Shown: positions 9,834-19,056 of the stretch, one piece after another
Layout: every line of letters starts with the position of its first letter
Numbering within the stretch: position 1 is the stretch's first letter
Origin: Bordetella parapertussis
GTDB taxonomy: Bacteria; Pseudomonadota; Gammaproteobacteria; Burkholderiales; Burkholderiaceae_B
Length of the DNA: 64,000 bases
Direction: 5' to 3'
Assembly (NCBI GenBank): GCA_945865935.1
Contig: CAMBFI010000003.1
Location: 1-64,000 of the forward strand
Position numbers and translations under genes: made by a program
The notes under the pieces: generated by a model
What the model saw: only the letters and a program-made list of their open reading frames with translations
Database searches by the model: none
What the model was told of the DNA's origin: nothing

Positions 9834-11246
9834 TTGGCACAATTTGTTTTTTCCGCGCTCTACAATGAAACTCCTAAATATTTTGAAGTTTTCATAAATA
9901 ATTTTCTGCACTACACCGGTGACGACTGTATCCTAGTCGTCAACATAGGCGCAGAGCGATGGATTCCAGCACATTACGACTGTCACCCTCGAATTTTTTT
10001 GATCGAAGCGGAAGTGGTTCGTGAGAAATGGGGATCTACGTTACTTGCAGGACATATCCAGTCTTTCCGTCATGCTGAAATAGTTTCACCTGACTTCGAG
10101 TTTTTTATACCTATAGCATCTAATAGCCTATTTTTTAGAAGTTTTGATGGCGTGCTAGCGCTTGACGCACTGGCTTCTAGTGTAGTGACCCGACATCCTA
10201 TGGCCACGTGGGAAGCACTCCCTCAGCGCTGGCATTGGCCGAAGTTGCAAGGATTTCAGGCTAATGGAGAAACGCTACGTAATAAGTGGGCAATAGATGG
10301 GCTTTGGGAATCACAAATTGAAGGCTTTCTTGCTTCAAGAGCGGACTGGTCTTTAATCGCTGACATATTTTTTGACTTGAAAGATTGCTGGATTGGCTTA
10401 AAAGCACCTCTCGAAGAAGTTCTGCCTGCAACTGTTATTAGCTCTATTGGCTCTGGGAAGATAACGCATATTTGCAAGGTTAAATGGGACCAGATGCGGT
10501 TGGGATTGCCCTTGGTGAATCTTGAGGATATCACCAACGTGGACAAACTACCCAGACAGGTTGTTTTGATGAAATGGTTCCCTCGAAACCCCATAGCCAC
10601 AGAAACACTATTCGTGGGAACCCCAGTTGGACAGACGCTTTTGACCGCCTTGCAAGTCGCAGAGCCAGGAAGCATGGAAGACGAATTGATTGAGACCTTG
10701 CTTCACACTTTCTTATCGCAAATAAAGGCTCGAGCAAAAAAGTCATTTGTTTTTTATCATGAGAAGCTGGATCAGCTTCTTTGCCCTCAATCCCTAGACA
10801 TGGTTGCTGACCGGTGTATTTGTGGGGTGGACGGGAGGGCACGTAAACCTGATGCACCTTTTATATATCTCGAAAATACGTTAGATCGTGTTCGTATCGC
10901 AACACATGCCTTAGCTGAGGGAAGTTTAAGCATTGACTGTACTGCGAGTACAGAAAATGAGAGCCAAGTGATACCTGAAAGATTACAGGCTTATTTATAT
11001 CTTCCTGTGCCTCAAGCCTCAGTGTTGTATTTATGTGGAAGTACGAAGGGAGTCTCTGTCGAGCGGCTTGTTAGGCATGTTATTTGGCATGATACCAAGT
11101 TCGATTATTTACCCCTACGGAGTTGCTCAATTGTTGGAGATTGTTTTGAAGCGCGCTACAGATTACCTCGCTTTACGCACACCTGCTTCCTCGGTTTGCC
11201 AATATGGAATGGACAAAATCTCCAACTGCACCTGATGATAAGTTAA
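9834..11246 (+). CDS. Protein of unknown function, possible glycosyltransferase
   Basis: This 470-residue soluble protein begins FVFSALYNETPKYFEVF and contains FEFFIPIASNSLFFRS. The pattern recalls the donor domain of core-2/I-branching-type glycosyltransferases, but the similarity is by eye and weak. The start is TTG 9834; no in-frame ATG lies near, and the ribosome binding site (GAGAG) is poor. It is the first gene of an AT-richer islet between tRNA-Thr and a deacetylase gene, together with two sugar-nucleotide-type transferases. A role in making or decorating a surface glycan is plausible. I would not assign an enzyme class with confidence. Confidence 0.5.
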   Translation: MAQFVFSALYNETPKYFEVFINNFLHYTGDDCILVVNIGAERWIPAHYDCHPRIFLIEAEVVREKWGSTLLAGHIQSFRHAEIVSPDFEFFIPIASNSLFFRSFDGVLALDALASSVVTRHPMATWEALPQRWHWPKLQGFQANGETLRNKWAIDGLWESQIEGFLASRADWSLIADIFFDLKDCWIGLKAPLEEVLPATVISSIGSGKITHICKVKWDQMRLGLPLVNLEDITNVDKLPRQVVLMKWFPRNPIATETLFVGTPVGQTLLTALQVAEPGSMEDELIETLLHTFLSQIKARAKKSFVFYHEKLDQLLCPQSLDMVADRCICGVDGRARKPDAPFIYLENTLDRVRIATHALAEGSLSIDCTASTENESQVIPERLQAYLYLPVPQASVLYLCGSTKGVSVERLVRHVIWHDTKFDYLPLRSCSIVGDCFEARYRLPRFTHTCFLGLPIWNGQNLQLHLMIS

Positions 11247-11311
11247 GGTGTAGTGATCGCGACTTGATTTGATAGTGTGTCCGTTTGCGGTACGTGTTTG
11301 TCAGATCAAAT

Positions 11312-13997: not shown

Positions 13998-14900
13998 ATG
14001 CGCGACTTCGTCGGTTACGCCAACAGTCTTCCAGATGCAAAATGGCCGGGGCAAGCCAGGGTAGCTGTACAGTTTGCCTTGAATTATGAAGAAGGCGCTG
14101 AAGCCAGTGTTCTAGATGGTGATGCCCGCAACGAGACCGGCCTTTCTGAAACGACCGGAGGTCGTGTGCCTGCTGGTATCCGCGATCTGGCTTTTGAATC
14201 GCTGTACGAGTATGGCAGTCGCGTTGGAGTCTGGCGCATTCTCGATCTTTTTGCAGAACGCAACCTACCCTTGACGCTCTTTGGTGCCGCGCTTGCACTG
14301 GAGCGCAACCCTAAGGTCGCTGAAGCGGTTGCACGGGCAGAGCACGACATCTGCTGCCACGGGTGGAGGTGGGAAGAGCCCTTTCGCTTAACGGAAGAAC
14401 AAGAACGCGAACATATCGCAAGGGCTGTGCAGTCTATTCAAAGATTGACGGGTCAACGTCCACTCGGCTGGTACTGCAGATATGGAGCCGGAGAACATAC
14501 ACGCAGGCTGATCGTTGAAGAAGGCGGCTTCCTATACGATTCGGATGCCTATAACGACGAGCTACCTTACTGGGTGACTGTGTCAGGTAAGAACCATCTG
14601 GTCGTCCCTTACACCATGGACGCCAACGATGCCAAGTACTCCTCCCCTGCTGGCTTTTCAACCGGTGACGATTTTTTCTCCTACCTCAAAGCGACGTTTG
14701 ACCAGCTCTATGACGAGGGAGCGAACAAGCCAAAGATCATGTCAGTCGGACTGCACGCTCGTATCTCTGGTCGCCCTGGCCGTGCGCGTGCGCTGGCTGC
14801 ATTCTTGGACTATGTCATGCAACACGATGCGGTTTGGGTGGCCCGGCGTATCGATATCGCCCGTCACTGGATTCGGGAACACCCAGCTCCGTTGCCCTAA
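13998..14900 (+). CDS. puuE: PuuE-type allantoinase / CE4-family deacetylase
   Basis: The 300-residue protein closely follows the layout of PuuE, the cofactor-independent allantoinase of the polysaccharide-deacetylase superfamily: FALNYEEGAE, SLYEYGSRVGVWRIL, ICCHGWRWEEP (His121), GWYCRYGAGEHTRRL, DDFF, GLHARISGRPGRARAL, and IARHW near the end. PuuE opens allantoin to allantoate in purine breakdown. No other purine genes (uricase, OHCU decarboxylase, allantoicase) are in the window, so a related cyclic amide is an alternative substrate. It is convergent with the next CE4 gene; the two stop codons overlap by four bases. Confidence 0.75.
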   Translation: MRDFVGYANSLPDAKWPGQARVAVQFALNYEEGAEASVLDGDARNETGLSETTGGRVPAGIRDLAFESLYEYGSRVGVWRILDLFAERNLPLTLFGAALALERNPKVAEAVARAEHDICCHGWRWEEPFRLTEEQEREHIARAVQSIQRLTGQRPLGWYCRYGAGEHTRRLIVEEGGFLYDSDAYNDELPYWVTVSGKNHLVVPYTMDANDAKYSSPAGFSTGDDFFSYLKATFDQLYDEGANKPKIMSVGLHARISGRPGRARALAAFLDYVMQHDAVWVARRIDIARHWIREHPAPLP

Positions 14901-15799
14901 CGCTTCTCTCGCCAGGCTGCCTCGATCTCAAGCGGTGCAGCCTGCCAAAAGGACTGCGCATCAAATGTAGAGAGTGTCTGCCTCAGGTTCGTGAATCGAT
15001 GGGGTGCGCCACTGATCCATGCATGTAGAGGCAGCACGAGCACAGATCCGTTCAACGCATGATCTTTCCAATAGGACAAGGCCTCAGCAAGATGCCCACA
15101 CCAGCGTGGCGACTGCAAGCGTCTTCCAATAACCATTTGCGCGTCATCCAGCTCCGCAGCGGGGGGGATAATCAGCAGCTTGCGGTCTTCACCGAACAAA
15201 AAGGGTATTTCATCATTGGGCCAGTCGACGGCAGTCGTAAAACCAAGCGAGGACAAGATACTCGCGGTATGTGTCGAGTAACCATAGTCCTGACTTGAGT
15301 AGGCTCGCGGCACGACTCCTGTCGCCTCGGCAATGGCATCCCTAGACCGACGAATCAGCTCAATTTCAATTTCTGGAGACACGGCGCTGGTGAGCATACG
15401 CGACGCAGACCACCCACTCGCCACGATCTCGACTCCGCGTCGATCCAAGTCGCGTACCAGCCACGGGTTCTCATGCGCAACTAAACCATTCACAGCAGCG
15501 ACCACCTTCCAGCCTAGCGACTGCAAGAAGTCAAGCAAGCGAAAGATACCTATGCGATTACCGTATTCCATCAAAGAATGCGATCGATATTCAGGTGAAT
15601 AATTCCCAAAATCAATCCGCCAACGAGAGTCGCGCGTGAAGTCTTGCGGGGTGTTGATTTCTAAGGCATGCACACGAATTAATATAAACGCGGCACTTCG
15701 GTGCCTTTCGGGCCAATCGCTGCCGCCTGATAAGGCCGCACGCCTATGTTCGTACCATGTATGGTCGGGTCCAATGTGTGTGGGATCACGCAGTGTCAT
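14897..15799 (-). CDS. CE4-family protein with a lost metal His
   Basis: This 300-residue PuuE-like protein (SLMEYGNRIGIFRLLDFL is conserved) reads IVASGWSA where its neighbours have C-C-H-G or M-C-H-G. Ser128 therefore replaces the conserved His. The late LPLHAWISGAPHR motif is kept. The start is 15799, where ATG overlaps the stop of the upstream CE4 gene (ATGA); the longer frame from 15889 lies within that gene. A translationally coupled pair of homologues, one with a damaged active site, suggests a heteromeric enzyme or a non-catalytic binding role. This is inference. Confidence 0.72.
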   Translation of the reverse strand: MTLRDPTHIGPDHTWYEHRRAALSGGSDWPERHRSAAFILIRVHALEINTPQDFTRDSRWRIDFGNYSPEYRSHSLMEYGNRIGIFRLLDFLQSLGWKVVAAVNGLVAHENPWLVRDLDRRGVEIVASGWSASRMLTSAVSPEIEIELIRRSRDAIAEATGVVPRAYSSQDYGYSTHTASILSSLGFTTAVDWPNDEIPFLFGEDRKLLIIPPAAELDDAQMVIGRRLQSPRWCGHLAEALSYWKDHALNGSVLVLPLHAWISGAPHRFTNLRQTLSTFDAQSFWQAAPLEIEAAWREKR

Positions 15800-16698
15800 A
15801 CTGGCTGCCCTTTGTGCAGCCACTCCTGCACAGTGCTTAGATAGTGTGCGCGGTACCAGCTTTCGATCTCTATGCCCGTAGCAAGCCAAACGTCATCATG
15901 GGAAAGTACATAACGTAAAGCGCGCTCAAACGCCCGAATACGCTGCGCTTGTCCAGTGACGTATGGATGAAAAGCAATACACATCACTAAGCCATTTTGA
16001 TGGCTCTCGCGATAAAGCGTGTCGAACTGATCGATGATGACTTTTGCATAATCATCCCCCTCACCTCCGTTCATATGAACGACCACATCGTTCACATCCA
16101 TTGAGTAGGGGATACTGATCAGACTGCCGCTGTTGGTGATCACGGGAAACGGCTGATCATCGTGATATAGATCGCAGTAGTAAGAAAAGCCCGCAGCATC
16201 GACCAGATCAGCGGTATTGAGCGTATGCGAGCAGGCGGGTGAAAACCAACCGTGTCGCGCCTGACCAGTCACCTCAACCATCCCCTGCCTGCAACGTTCG
16301 ATGAACGCCCTTTCCTCGTCCAAAGGATAGTTCCAGAGGTAATGCGTGTTGTAGAGACCATGGCACATGAAATCCCATTCACGTCGCTTCATTTCATGAA
16401 ACACATCGGGAAACATGGTGGGCAACGCCAGTGACAGAGAAACCGTGCAACGGATACCTAATCGATCGGTTACATCCAGAATCCTGTCGATGCCAACGCG
16501 ATTTCCGTATTCCTTCAGCGGATAATTCAGCGCATCGGGGGACATGCTCCGAGGCCAGGGATCCCGTATACCTTTGTAAGAGGGATCGATCTCATAATGT
16601 TCGACATTCGGTACCAACCAGACCGCAAGCCGTTTGCCTTCAGGCCAAGCTATTTTTGGCCGACCCTGCAAAGGCGCATACTCAAATCTCTTAGTCAT
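15796..16698 (-). CDS. CE4-family deacetylase / allantoinase-like hydrolase
   Basis: The 300-residue protein has the PuuE-type YPLKEYGNRVGIDRILD block, FMCHGLYNTHYLW with His113 and His119, SPACSHTLNTADL, and AFHPYVTGQAQR late in the chain. It should hydrolyse an amide of a small compound in the cytoplasm; there is no signal peptide. ATG 16698 is preceded by GAGAGGA, while the frame from 16728 lacks a site. It is the first gene of a two-gene operon with the degenerate homologue at 14897-15799 and diverges from a Bug receptor gene, which may bring in the substrate. Confidence 0.78.
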   Translation of the reverse strand: MTKRFEYAPLQGRPKIAWPEGKRLAVWLVPNVEHYEIDPSYKGIRDPWPRSMSPDALNYPLKEYGNRVGIDRILDVTDRLGIRCTVSLSLALPTMFPDVFHEMKRREWDFMCHGLYNTHYLWNYPLDEERAFIERCRQGMVEVTGQARHGWFSPACSHTLNTADLVDAAGFSYYCDLYHDDQPFPVITNSGSLISIPYSMDVNDVVVHMNGGEGDDYAKVIIDQFDTLYRESHQNGLVMCIAFHPYVTGQAQRIRAFERALRYVLSHDDVWLATGIEIESWYRAHYLSTVQEWLHKGQPV

Positions 16699-16876
16699 TC
16701 CATTCCTCTCACGTTCGATCAGATGCATGTACTTAAGAAAGGTTGGGACTCAATATGATGAATGTGCTTGTCGTCCTCGGACAAATCCGAGTGATAGGAC
16801 TTGTTTCATTATCCCGATTGGATTAAAACAGATAAACAATGCCAAATGGGTTGCTTAGATTTTCAGGAGCGTAGCT

Positions 16877-17878
16877 ATGTTAAGTATGGAAATGAAAGTG
16901 CGCAGTCTTTCCGTGATAGTCGGAATGGCAGCAGTGGCCTCAGTACTCGCCTCGACATCTGCAGTCGCACAAAGCGATTTTCCCCTACGCCCTATCAAAA
17001 TTATCGTCGGTTTTGCTCCGGGCGGTCCAACTGACGTTCAGGCAAGGTTGCTTGCGAGCAAACTCGGCCCAATCCTGAATCAAACCGTGGTGATTGAGAA
17101 CAAACCGGGCGCATCGACAACAATTGCCTTGGCTGAAGTTGCACGCGCGACCCCCGACGGCTACACCTTGTCGTTTGGTGGCTCAGGCGCATTCGCGACA
17201 ACTCCAGTAACAATGGCGTCCCTTCCCTACAACCCCAAAACTGCGTTCGAGCCCATTGCAATGACGGGCGAGGAACAAATCGCTTTTGCGGTCAACCCCT
17301 CACTACCTGCCAAGACACTGGCAGAGTTTGTTGCGCTTGCCAAGCAAAACCCCGGAAAGTATTCATTCGGCAGTTCTGGACAAGGCAATATTACCCACCT
17401 GACTGGCGAGCTACTCAAGCTCCGTGCGGGTGGTATACAGATCGAACATATTGCCTACAAGGGTGCAGCACCAGCTTTGAACGATGTGCTTGCTGGGCAC
17501 GTGCAAATGATGGTGGGCGGTCTGGGTAGCGTCTACCCCATGCACCAAAACGGTAAGCTGCGCGTACTGGCCATCACATCGAAAGATCGTGTGTCATACG
17601 CGAAGGACATCCCCACAGCAGAACAGGCAGGAATCAAAGACCTGATTGCTGGAAGCACCTTCGTACTCCTTGCACCAGCCAAAACACCCAAAAACGTGAT
17701 TCAAAAGCTGAATCAGGCTGTGAACGAGGCATTAAAAGAAGCATCGTTTCAGCAGGATATGCGTGCTGCGTACGTTGAACCTATTTTGGGTTCTACACCA
17801 GCGTCTACTCAACAGCTCTTGGACACTGAGCTGGCGCTTTGGAAGAATCTCGTCGAGAAATCGAACCTGAAGTTCTGA
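16877..17878 (+). CDS. Bug-family tripartite tricarboxylate transporter receptor
   Basis: This 333-residue periplasmic receptor has a Sec signal peptide (cleavage near AVAQS, about residue 32) followed by the family opening DFPLRPIKIIVGFAPGGPTDVQARLLA and the VIENKPGAS motif. Bug proteins bind carboxylates and some amides and feed TctAB-type permeases, which are usually encoded elsewhere, as here. The family is hugely expanded in Alcaligenaceae, which supports the host assignment. The start follows CAGGAGCG. It diverges from the CE4 pair, so its ligand may be the substrate of those enzymes. Confidence 0.93.
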   Translation: MLSMEMKVRSLSVIVGMAAVASVLASTSAVAQSDFPLRPIKIIVGFAPGGPTDVQARLLASKLGPILNQTVVIENKPGASTTIALAEVARATPDGYTLSFGGSGAFATTPVTMASLPYNPKTAFEPIAMTGEEQIAFAVNPSLPAKTLAEFVALAKQNPGKYSFGSSGQGNITHLTGELLKLRAGGIQIEHIAYKGAAPALNDVLAGHVQMMVGGLGSVYPMHQNGKLRVLAITSKDRVSYAKDIPTAEQAGIKDLIAGSTFVLLAPAKTPKNVIQKLNQAVNEALKEASFQQDMRAAYVEPILGSTPASTQQLLDTELALWKNLVEKSNLKF

Positions 17879-18022
17879 TCGTCTGGCGATCCATGCTAGA
17901 TGATCCGTCCCGGGTTATCGAGCTTGAGCTGAAAGTGCGCCCTGACAGCCAAGCCCACGGCTATAGGGATCTTAAATCCCTGCAGATCCACCGCAACAGC
18001 GCACAAATCGTACAATTTTTTG

Positions 18023-18091
18023 TTGACGCCTATCAAATAGCGAGTGTATAACGATTAGGCATTGTCATATTGTACAAAATGTCATTATGAT
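18023..18091 (+). promoter_or_regulatory. Tandem promoters of the small peptide gene
   Basis: There are two consensus-like pairs. P1 is TTGACG (18023-18028), an 18-bp spacer, then TATAAC (18047-18052). P2 is TTGTCA (18062-18067), an 18-bp spacer, then TATGAT (18086-18091). P2 would give a leader of about 55 bases. Nothing else downstream on the plus strand is served before the terminator at 18341. Confidence 0.6.
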
Positions 18092-18192
18092 GTTTTGCTA
18101 ACCGATAACCCACAACCACTTGCGCGTGGGCACTCACAACCTTGGAGTCTGCTATGAATATTGAACTGGATGAAGTTGTTGTACAAAATGTC
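18070..18192. repeat. 14-bp direct repeat in promoter and peptide gene
   Basis: TTGTACAAAATGTC occurs at 18070-18083, between the -35 and -10 of promoter P2, and again at 18179-18192 inside the peptide frame, where it encodes part of VVQNV. The TTGTACAA part is self-complementary. The exact repeat 109 bp apart may be a protein-binding pair; chance is possible. Confidence 0.5.
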
Positions 18193-18276
18193 TCCGATGA
18201 CGCATTGGAGCTGGCTGCCGGCAAGCAGGGCGGCGTCTTATTGTGGAGTGGCTGGGGTGTTCCTGGGTGCTATTAA
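18154..18276 (+). CDS. 40-residue peptide, candidate RiPP precursor
   Basis: The short frame starts at ATG 18154 after GGAG at 8 bases and ends at TAA 18274-18276. Residues 1-20 form an acidic, helical-looking leader (MNIELDEVVVQNVSDDALEL). A small-residue stretch AAGKQGG (21-27) follows, then a hydrophobic, aromatic tail VLLWSGWGVPGCY with two Trp, one Cys and a final Tyr. Acidic leader, small-residue junction and Cys/Trp/Tyr-rich core are hallmarks of ribosomally made, modified peptides. Such leaders often contain SD-ALE-like segments. It is a separate transcription unit with promoters and a terminator. No modifying enzyme, protease or exporter is next to it, so maturation in trans, or another role for the peptide, must be considered. 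Confidence 0.6.
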   Translation: MNIELDEVVVQNVSDDALELAAGKQGGVLLWSGWGVPGCY

Positions 18277-18340
18277 GCACACATCCCCAGTTCTCGGTCA
18301 TAGCCATTACTGACCGGGAACCCATACCCACTTGGGTACT

Positions 18341-18362
18341 AGCCACCTTCGGGTGGCTTTTT
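18341..18362 (+). terminator. Terminator of the peptide gene
   Basis: A perfect 7-bp stem AGCCACC/GGTGGCT closed by the stable TTCG tetraloop, followed by TTTTT. It lies 65 bp after the peptide stop codon. Confidence 0.85.
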
Positions 18363-18486
18363 AACGCCTGCATCAGAGAGCCCGAGCAGCGTGTTAATCA
18401 AAAAATTTACCGTTAGTTTGTTAGCAAAAGTCTGATACCGGTAACTATCTGTGGCCCCAGCCCGTAAGCGGGGACCACCTAACAAG

Positions 18487-19056
18487 TTAACTAAACATCT
18501 CTACCTTGCCATCAAGCGCCATCAGGCCTAGTTGGCTACCGAGCTTCGGCTGACGCACTGCGAGCTCTTTCTTGAAGGTTAGCAACGCGTTTTTATGCGT
18601 CTCTGTTTCCGCTGCTGGTGTGGCGACAGCGGCTGCACCGTAAGCAATTTTGGCTGCGCCGCAATCGCGATGATTGATGACGATCACCTGCTTAATGTTG
18701 TGCAGCTGCAAAGAGGCGGCGAGGTTTTCCCAAAAGGCGACTTGCCACGCTTTGAACGCAGGCGCGACAACGCCAATCGAGGCACCCGCAATGGTAAACG
18801 CGCTGTATTTATTGGTACGCCCTTCTTTCGCTTCGCGATCAAACACGAGCTTTTGAAACCTGGGGTCAATACAAGACAAGACCATGGCCTCATAGTTACC
18901 GGAGGCAGCGAATGACAATTGCGGCGCTAGAAAGGCCGCCATCCCCGCACCGGCAGCCGTACGCAAAAAATCCCGGCGACTGCTCGGTTGTGACAGCATA
19001 TCCGTACACCACTGACAGGACAGCCCAGCGTAATGAGAGACACGATTCGATGACAT
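18487..19056 (-). CDS. Tat-exported beta-carbonic-anhydrase-like protein
   Basis: The 189-residue protein has a twin-arginine signal (SSRRDFLRTAAGAGMAAFLAP, about residues 25-45). A beta-carbonic-anhydrase core follows: SCIDPRF, matching the C-x-D-x-R zinc and catalytic dyad, and NHRDCGAAK, matching H-x2-C. All four expected zinc-site residues are present. Active enzyme would hydrate CO2 in the periplasm, but homologues of this short, exported type are poorly characterised. The start at 19056 has TAGGAA upstream and gives a long leader before the arginines. A later ATG at codon 20 is an alternative start closer to the normal signal length. Confidence 0.78.
   Translation of the reverse strand: MSSNRVSHYAGLSCQWCTDMLSQPSSRRDFLRTAAGAGMAAFLAPQLSFAASGNYEAMVLSCIDPRFQKLVFDREAKEGRTNKYSAFTIAGASIGVVAPAFKAWQVAFWENLAASLQLHNIKQVIVINHRDCGAAKIAYGAAAVATPAAETETHKNALLTFKKELAVRQPKLGSQLGLMALDGKVEMFS

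Follow-up and report, generated by a model that had tools for sequence, protein, structure and literature searches.

A predicted class II lanthipeptide precursor from a dispersed, short-leader gene family, probably modified in trans by a distant LanM

The prochlorosins and synechococsins of marine picocyanobacteria (ProcA-ProcM and SyncA-SyncM) are the closest described systems to the one reported here. They have a single LanM synthetase with a CCG zinc motif, scattered precursor genes, a conserved leader and a hypervariable core (PMC10783134; PMC10027976; PMC12328550), all of which recur in our data, and in these papers CCG marks the promiscuous, ProcM-like group of LanM enzymes. Prochlorosins may also leave the cell without dedicated transporters, and a link between picocyanobacterial lanthipeptide genes and TnpA-REP transposases has been reported (PMC10783134). 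Genome mining has also found clusters of a related kind among alpha- and gammaproteobacteria (PMC12328550). Here, we describe a small gene from a betaproteobacterial genome that very probably encodes a class II lanthipeptide precursor of a dispersed family, modified in trans by a distant LanM that would close a ring between Ser32 and Cys39. This assignment is built on sequence comparison.

The window, meaning the entire 64,000-nucleotide stretch of DNA analysed, carries the gene at 18154–18276 on the plus strand. Its ATG at 18154 opens 40 codons that end in a TAA at 18274–18276, and the product reads MNIELDEVVVQNVSDDALELAAGKQGGVLLWSGWGVPGCY. Alignment and per-position entropy place the leader in the 27 codons up to QGG (18154–18234, +), with a probable rather than exact leader/core border. 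Codons 1–23 form the family-conserved portion of this leader, and S14, D15, A17, L18, E19, A21 and A22 are invariant across all 12 members in the same genome. The predicted core VLLWSGWGVPGCY (18235–18273, +) has a single Ser (residue 32) and a single Cys (residue 39), the predicted ring-forming pair, and with these the peptide has the composition of a LanA: a leader followed by a core with Ser/Thr and Cys. Pfam and PHROGs hold no family for the 40-mer, and Rfam gave nothing at the gene site and one sub-threshold match elsewhere. An NCBIfam match to IMP dehydrogenase (E 0.12) was set aside as being at chance level.

The promoter common to the gene and its sister genes, TTGACG-18-TATAAC, occupies 18023–18052 (+), with the −35 element TTGACG at 18023–18028, an 18-bp spacer, and the −10 element TATAAC at 18047–18052. 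Within 200 bp upstream of the start, TTGAC-N17-19-TANNA occurs in 33 of 86 family members, against 0.5 in base shuffles. A consensus scan of 17800–18500 did not call this promoter; the scanner's fixed rules require T as the sixth −10 base, and the window has C. The same scan returned three promoter-like sites where 1.1 were expected by chance, at 18062–18091 (+; score 10/12), at 17820–17848, and on the minus strand. Comparison with the sister genes favours the first promoter over the 18062–18091 site, which is probably unused. The orthologue in genome G250 retains the −35 TTGACG, keeps the −10 weakly (TAAAGT), and does not retain the second site. The ribosome binding site CTTGGAG (18141–18147, +) recurs within one mismatch in 68/86 upstream stretches of the family (18.6 in shuffles). 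A terminator common to the sister genes, AGCCACCTTCGGGTGGCTTTTTAACGC (18341–18367, +), contains the stem-loop AGCCACC-TTCG-GGTGGCT followed by a T-run. The RNA of 18320–18366 folds at −19.5 kcal/mol (z −4.5), with none of 200 shuffles equally good, and the consensus scanner called no terminator within 17800–18500. A conserved 5′-UTR hairpin was considered and dropped, the window fold being no better than shuffles (z −0.08).

The upstream neighbour (16877–17878, +) is a TctC-type solute-binding receptor by Pfam scan, and the downstream neighbour (18487–19056, −) is carbonic-anhydrase-like by a weak match, with a sub-threshold Tat signal. Three adjoining ORFs at 13998–16728 resemble polysaccharide-deacetylase-type proteins by reading. 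No modification enzyme is evident by reading among ORFs of at least 120 amino acids between 8 and 30 kb of the window, the Pfam scan covering the two direct neighbours. This agrees with the original prediction, made from the DNA letters and their open reading frames, that no such enzyme is adjacent. The 40-codon frame, the ribosome binding site and the TTCG-loop terminator that it named are likewise present, as are the acidic N-terminal half, the AAGKQGG hinge and the Trp/Cys/Tyr tail. Of its two promoters with 18-bp spacers, the first is borne out by the sister genes and the second is not kept in the G250 orthologue.

The genome to which the window belongs (3.25 Mb, 54 contigs, 97% complete) holds 12 precursor genes on seven contigs: two on C2, the window gene on C3, four on C8, one each on C18, C28 and C30, and two on C31. 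A peptide search and a profile of its hits recovered the same 12. All have frames of 39–44 codons, and their alignment contains 15 invariant columns, 14 in the leader and one a Cys near the C terminus. The tails are mutually unlike, save for one pair (C28 and C8:68352). Twelve copies with an almost invariant leader, taken with the synonymous bias of the orthologue differences, indicate that the window gene is more than a chance frame.

Two of the other precursor sites have neighbours of their own. The C18 precursor is followed by a 349-aa protein (L013:8765–9814, −) that matches AurF below threshold (20.7 bits; cut-off 29.6) and, by reading, contains two ExxH-type sites; it is possibly an extra tailoring enzyme. 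An 83%-identical copy follows the orthologous precursor in G127, and a 33-aa fragment matching it lies just upstream of lanM in G207. On C31, the two precursors lie next to a phage-type integrase and to a replication-protein match that falls below threshold (L011:11199–13556, −), which suggests a mobile island.

The same genome encodes a LanM of 1073 residues (P0001; G000:C8:69059–72280, equivalent to L010:10560–13781, −). The four C8 precursors follow it on the same strand, with a gap of 179 bp before the first one. The LanM is the sole PF13575 match in the genome, also matches PF05147, and scores 733 bits against TIGR03897 (cut-off 304). The dehydratase and LanC-like cyclase by which a class II synthetase is recognised are both found in this protein. 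All 15 family LanMs that were aligned, 14 from the window genus and one from a sister genus, carry the CCG zinc motif, WCHG and conserved dehydratase stretches (two incomplete LanMs were excluded); these stretches presumably hold the catalytic residues. With CCG, and with one LanM for 12 precursors on seven contigs, the genome has the traits of the ProcM-like group. A LanM scan of named genomes returned 13 betaproteobacterial loci at 70–92% identity, nearly all from metagenome assemblies, followed by eight cyanobacterial loci at 30–33%. The isolate Zwartia vadi IMCC34845 is among the LanM-bearing records; G144, taken as its genome, contains a LanM and a single precursor. Three metagenome records titled Bordetella parapertussis (L058, L065 and L066) bear the same LanM. 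A GNAT acetyltransferase of 301–304 aa adjoins lanM in 6 of 16 distinct loci (e.g., L118:7570–8475, −); the genome of the window lacks it, and in Z. vadi (G144) it is broken. Searched with a cut-off of E 0.01, the C39 peptidase model PF03412 has no match in the genome of the window (as a control, it matched 8 of 14 known genomes). C39 matches occur in two of 32 genomes of the genus, and only one of the 16 LanM-bearing genomes (G144) has a match, a weak one.

Across genomes, the search gave 92 precursor matches in 20 genomes, 18 from the window genus and two from the sister genus. Of these matches, 86 are complete frames, the other six having been dropped because they were cut by contig ends or lacked a usual start codon; by reading, eight of the 86 start with GTG or TTG. 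The tail, taken as residue 24 onward, was compared in the 85 members without unknown bases: Ser/Thr and Cys occur together in 84, Ser/Thr precedes the last Cys in 83, and a terminal Cys is found in 46 (raw counts). Of the leader residues 0.1% are Cys, against 7.7% in the tail. AAGG and/or QGG, a candidate double-glycine cleavage motif, is present in most members. Some cores recur across species, with a AYAQVSWLNLQTHCVA-like core in four genomes and the window core in two. Degraded-looking copies also exist, including frames with internal stops in G229:C167 and G237:C48.

Among the 32 genomes of the genus, LanM was found in 16 and precursors in 18: 15 have both, 13 have neither, one has LanM only (G245, 65% complete) and three have precursors only (11 in G215, five in G247 and one weak match in G223). 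The co-occurrence gives a Fisher p of 4e-5, uncorrected for kinship. A survey of 250 genomes of the family recovered precursors in 17, namely 15 from the window genus and two from one sister genus; in 399 genomes of the order they occur in the own genome only, the other 398 sampled yielding no relatives at E up to 1e-4. Viral contigs gave 75 pattern matches to precursors and no confirmed one, and plasmids, searched with one sister peptide, gave no relatives. Within the samples searched, the precursor family is confined to the window genus and one sister genus. Among the titles and abstract openings retrieved on lanthipeptides or LanM in Betaproteobacteria, Alcaligenaceae, Burkholderiales and GKS98, and on Zwartia, none describes the family, and the Z. 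vadi paper (PMC10535154) has no match for six natural-product terms.

In G250, an orthologue of the window gene (G250:C105) stands beside the same left-hand neighbour and encodes MNIELDEVVVQNVSDDALELAASKQGGVLLWSGLRVPGCY. The two genes differ at 11 of 120 bases, with 7.5 synonymous and 3.5 non-synonymous differences (dS 0.34, dN 0.04, ratio 0.11), and the orthologue retains Ser32 and Cys39. The orthologue thus appears to be under purifying selection, as judged from few sites. In the relative G127, both flanks are present (94.9% and 89.3% identical), and the gene site is empty: the 558 bp at 17890–18447 are lacking, and the flanks stand 4 bases apart. This may reflect a gain in the window genome or a loss in G127. 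The window copy has AAGK and then QGG where most members have AAGG, and the orthologue has AASK; because of AAGK in place of AAGG, the cleavage site of the window copy is uncertain. Several earlier expectations can be judged at this point. An equal rate of synonymous and non-synonymous change had been named as a refutation, and the ratio of about 0.11 over 11 differences favours a real gene. The reading as a RiPP precursor is strengthened by 12 genes with near-invariant leaders and variable tails in a genome with a LanM, and the idea of an orphan precursor gives way to 11 sister precursors and one LanM elsewhere in that genome.

The precursor genes share more than their coding sequence. An inverted repeat GCATT-N4-6-AATGC (at most one mismatch) lies upstream of 31/86 members, against 2.5 in shuffles; the window copy has the promoter and lacks this repeat. 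Promoter and inverted repeat occur together four times in 168 kb of the own genome, each time 74–106 bp before a precursor start. This promoter-operator motif is absent within 250 bp upstream of all 15 lanM genes examined, which counts against the motif controlling the enzyme together with its substrates. A flanking repeat similar to GTTAGCTATTGCTGACCGGTAACCCA or its variant is found, with up to six mismatches, upstream of 48/86 and downstream of 44/86 members and never in shuffles. By eye, the window gene has a degenerate 5′ copy, GCTAACCGATAACCCA (18097–18112, +), and a 3′ copy, TAGCCATTACTGACCGGGAACCCA (18301–18324, +). The terminator has five copies in the own genome at up to two mismatches, all five beside precursors; in other genomes of the genus, some terminator copies have no precursor next to them. 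At locus L181, the promoter is fused to the terminator with no frame between them.

The relation of leader to core was compared in 77 genes with an ATG start, taking the first 66 bases as leader. Leader DNA is at least 92% identical in 183 pairs, and only two of these, both between species, have alike cores, which shows that low core identity does not arise from the choice of pairs. The other 181 pairs involve 48 genes, include 34 pairs within one genome, and are not independent of one another. Their identity is 0.90–1.00 up to base 72, falls to 0.78 and then 0.64 across the 12 bases that follow, and from there runs at 0.24–0.32, near chance, before climbing to 0.58 at the last codon. This final rise could mark a fixed end or, equally, selection for a terminal Cys. 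The reverse pattern is seen in two own-genome paralogues that share a core with no synonymous difference and have 12 synonymous differences in the leader (p 6e-5, with rounded site counts). Alike leaders with unlike cores, together with this reverse pattern, point to recombination at the leader-core joint. Cores appear to be replaced wholesale behind a fixed leader, and not to drift. Comparison of loci shows precursor cassettes, consisting of leader, core, repeat and terminator, that have apparently been duplicated, recombined, gained and lost away from lanM.

Core-versus-core blastn returned in-frame, orthologue-like pairs, pairs from read-through into the repeat, and one pair of degraded copies. 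The possibility that cores arose from each other by shifting or inversion was set aside, with only two out-of-frame pairs, both of them repeat read-through, and no inverted match. A comparison by eye with attC core sites led us to drop an integron-like interpretation of the flanking repeat. A diversity-generating retroelement was dropped by reasoning, as cores differ in length and at all kinds of base. A hotspot seems to lie beside moaC, where there is a precursor in the own genome (L012, ~9900–11250), LanM and a precursor in G229 (L103), and in G127 three precursors along with an empty cassette (L181 and L094). moaC itself was scanned in L012, and the other two moaC loci were matched by reading. 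A tentative model, possible rather than probable in our estimation, is a core-shuffling cassette system. New cores would be spliced between the fixed leader, joining it near the GCGCAGGGGGG tract, and a constant end whose repeat provides the final Cys codon and the stop; short DNA of nearly any kind that is captured in this way could be acted on by one promiscuous LanM, and maturation would proceed without a C39 protease.

For the window gene, we propose that the promoter common to the sister genes would drive its transcription, and that the single LanM would recognise the conserved leader, dehydrate Ser32 and join it to Cys39, giving the predicted one-ring product VLLW-[S-GWGVPG-C]-Y. The leader would then be cut off, perhaps after QGG, and a putative protease and exporter would release the ring peptide. 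The same LanM would process the 11 other precursors with their unlike cores, as ProcM does in cyanobacteria. We regard modification in trans as highly likely because 12 paralogues combine a near-invariant leader with variable tails and an aligned Cys; because one LanM with CCG (15/15 in the family) has four precursors 179 bp downstream; because LanM and precursors co-occur; because 84/85 tails hold Ser/Thr and Cys; because the orthologue, at dN/dS 0.11, keeps Ser32 and Cys39; and because the leader end is like the double-glycine motif of N11P leaders. Set against this are AAGK, the failure to find a C39 exporter, the three precursor-only genomes, the missing motif at lanM, and a dN/dS drawn from 11 differences.

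Some of these points would also suit other explanations. The family could be real and the window copy retired, decaying and no longer cleaved or modified. The family-motif GG is indeed replaced (AAGK, and AASK in the orthologue), the site is empty in G127, and degraded members occur elsewhere (the two frames with stops and the frameless L181 cassette); a decaying gene is nevertheless at odds with a dN/dS of 0.11, with the Ser32, Cys39 and second GG (QGG) of the orthologue, and with an intact terminator, ribosome binding site and −35, and we consider it unlikely. It is less probable still that the peptide is an unmodified microprotein or signal whose tail is active without a lanthionine ring. 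No product has been seen and precursors occur where no LanM was found (G215, G247 and G223), but tails that are otherwise unlike hold Ser/Thr and Cys in 84/85 members, and four precursors sit beside LanM. The original prediction had named radical-SAM or YcaO enzymes as possible makers, for which only the build of the peptide speaks; no RiPP enzyme other than LanM was found next to a sister precursor, the AurF-like gene at one pair of precursors is a local matter of its own, and a lanthipeptide synthetase is the likelier enzyme, which leaves another RiPP enzyme extremely improbable. We give equally little credence to a selfish repeat with the open frame as a passenger. The flanking repeat and terminator are multi-copy and the L181 cassette is frameless, but the leader is conserved as protein through many synonymous changes, some cores are conserved across species, and co-occurrence in the genus ties the genes to LanM.

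As a lanthipeptide system modified in trans, the family can be compared with several known groups. LicM2 (6st5) and CylM (5dzt) align with the LanM over dehydratase and cyclase (E 7e-69 and 7e-38, respectively) and read CHG where the LanM has CCG; both enzymes act within local clusters that contain one or two precursors. The next nearest LanMs in the scan were cyanobacterial (Nostoc, Chamaesiphon, Anabaena and others; 30–33% identity), with CCG in 6/8. At the Chamaesiphon locus, a Nif11-like precursor, named by reading and ending in LSEEQLEAVAGG, adjoins LanM; the precursor profile run against the eight cyanobacterial LanM loci gave nothing convincing (best E 0.015). N11P and NHLP precursors resemble the family in having a conserved leader followed by a variable core, and the consensus of the family, DVSDDALELAAGG, matches N11P motif 2, ELSDEELEAVAGG, at 7/13 residues (PMC2887384). 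Their published mean leader ends, ~70 and 83, contrast with the short leader here, and the NCBIfam models Nif11/N11P (TIGR03798) and NHLP (TIGR03793) match none of the 12 own-genome members at E up to 1.

If the preferred reading is correct, pairs with near-identical leader DNA and cores at chance identity, plus the reverse pair, would offer clean material for studying the origin of cores. Zwartia vadi, a named isolate of the same genus, could be used for testing, and a short-leader LanM of CCG type could serve as a tool for building cyclic peptide libraries. The leader of ~23–28 residues compares with ~60–70 in prochlorosins, the 12 precursors with 29 or 79 in prochlorosin and synechococsin systems, and the betaproteobacterial host with picocyanobacteria; no C39 protease was found in the own genome, whereas C39 lies near some Synechococcus clusters (PMC10783134). 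By leader type, the system is not a member of the prochlorosins, yet it would work like them, and it would extend their one-enzyme, many-peptides logic to betaproteobacteria of fresh water, using a leader under half the length.
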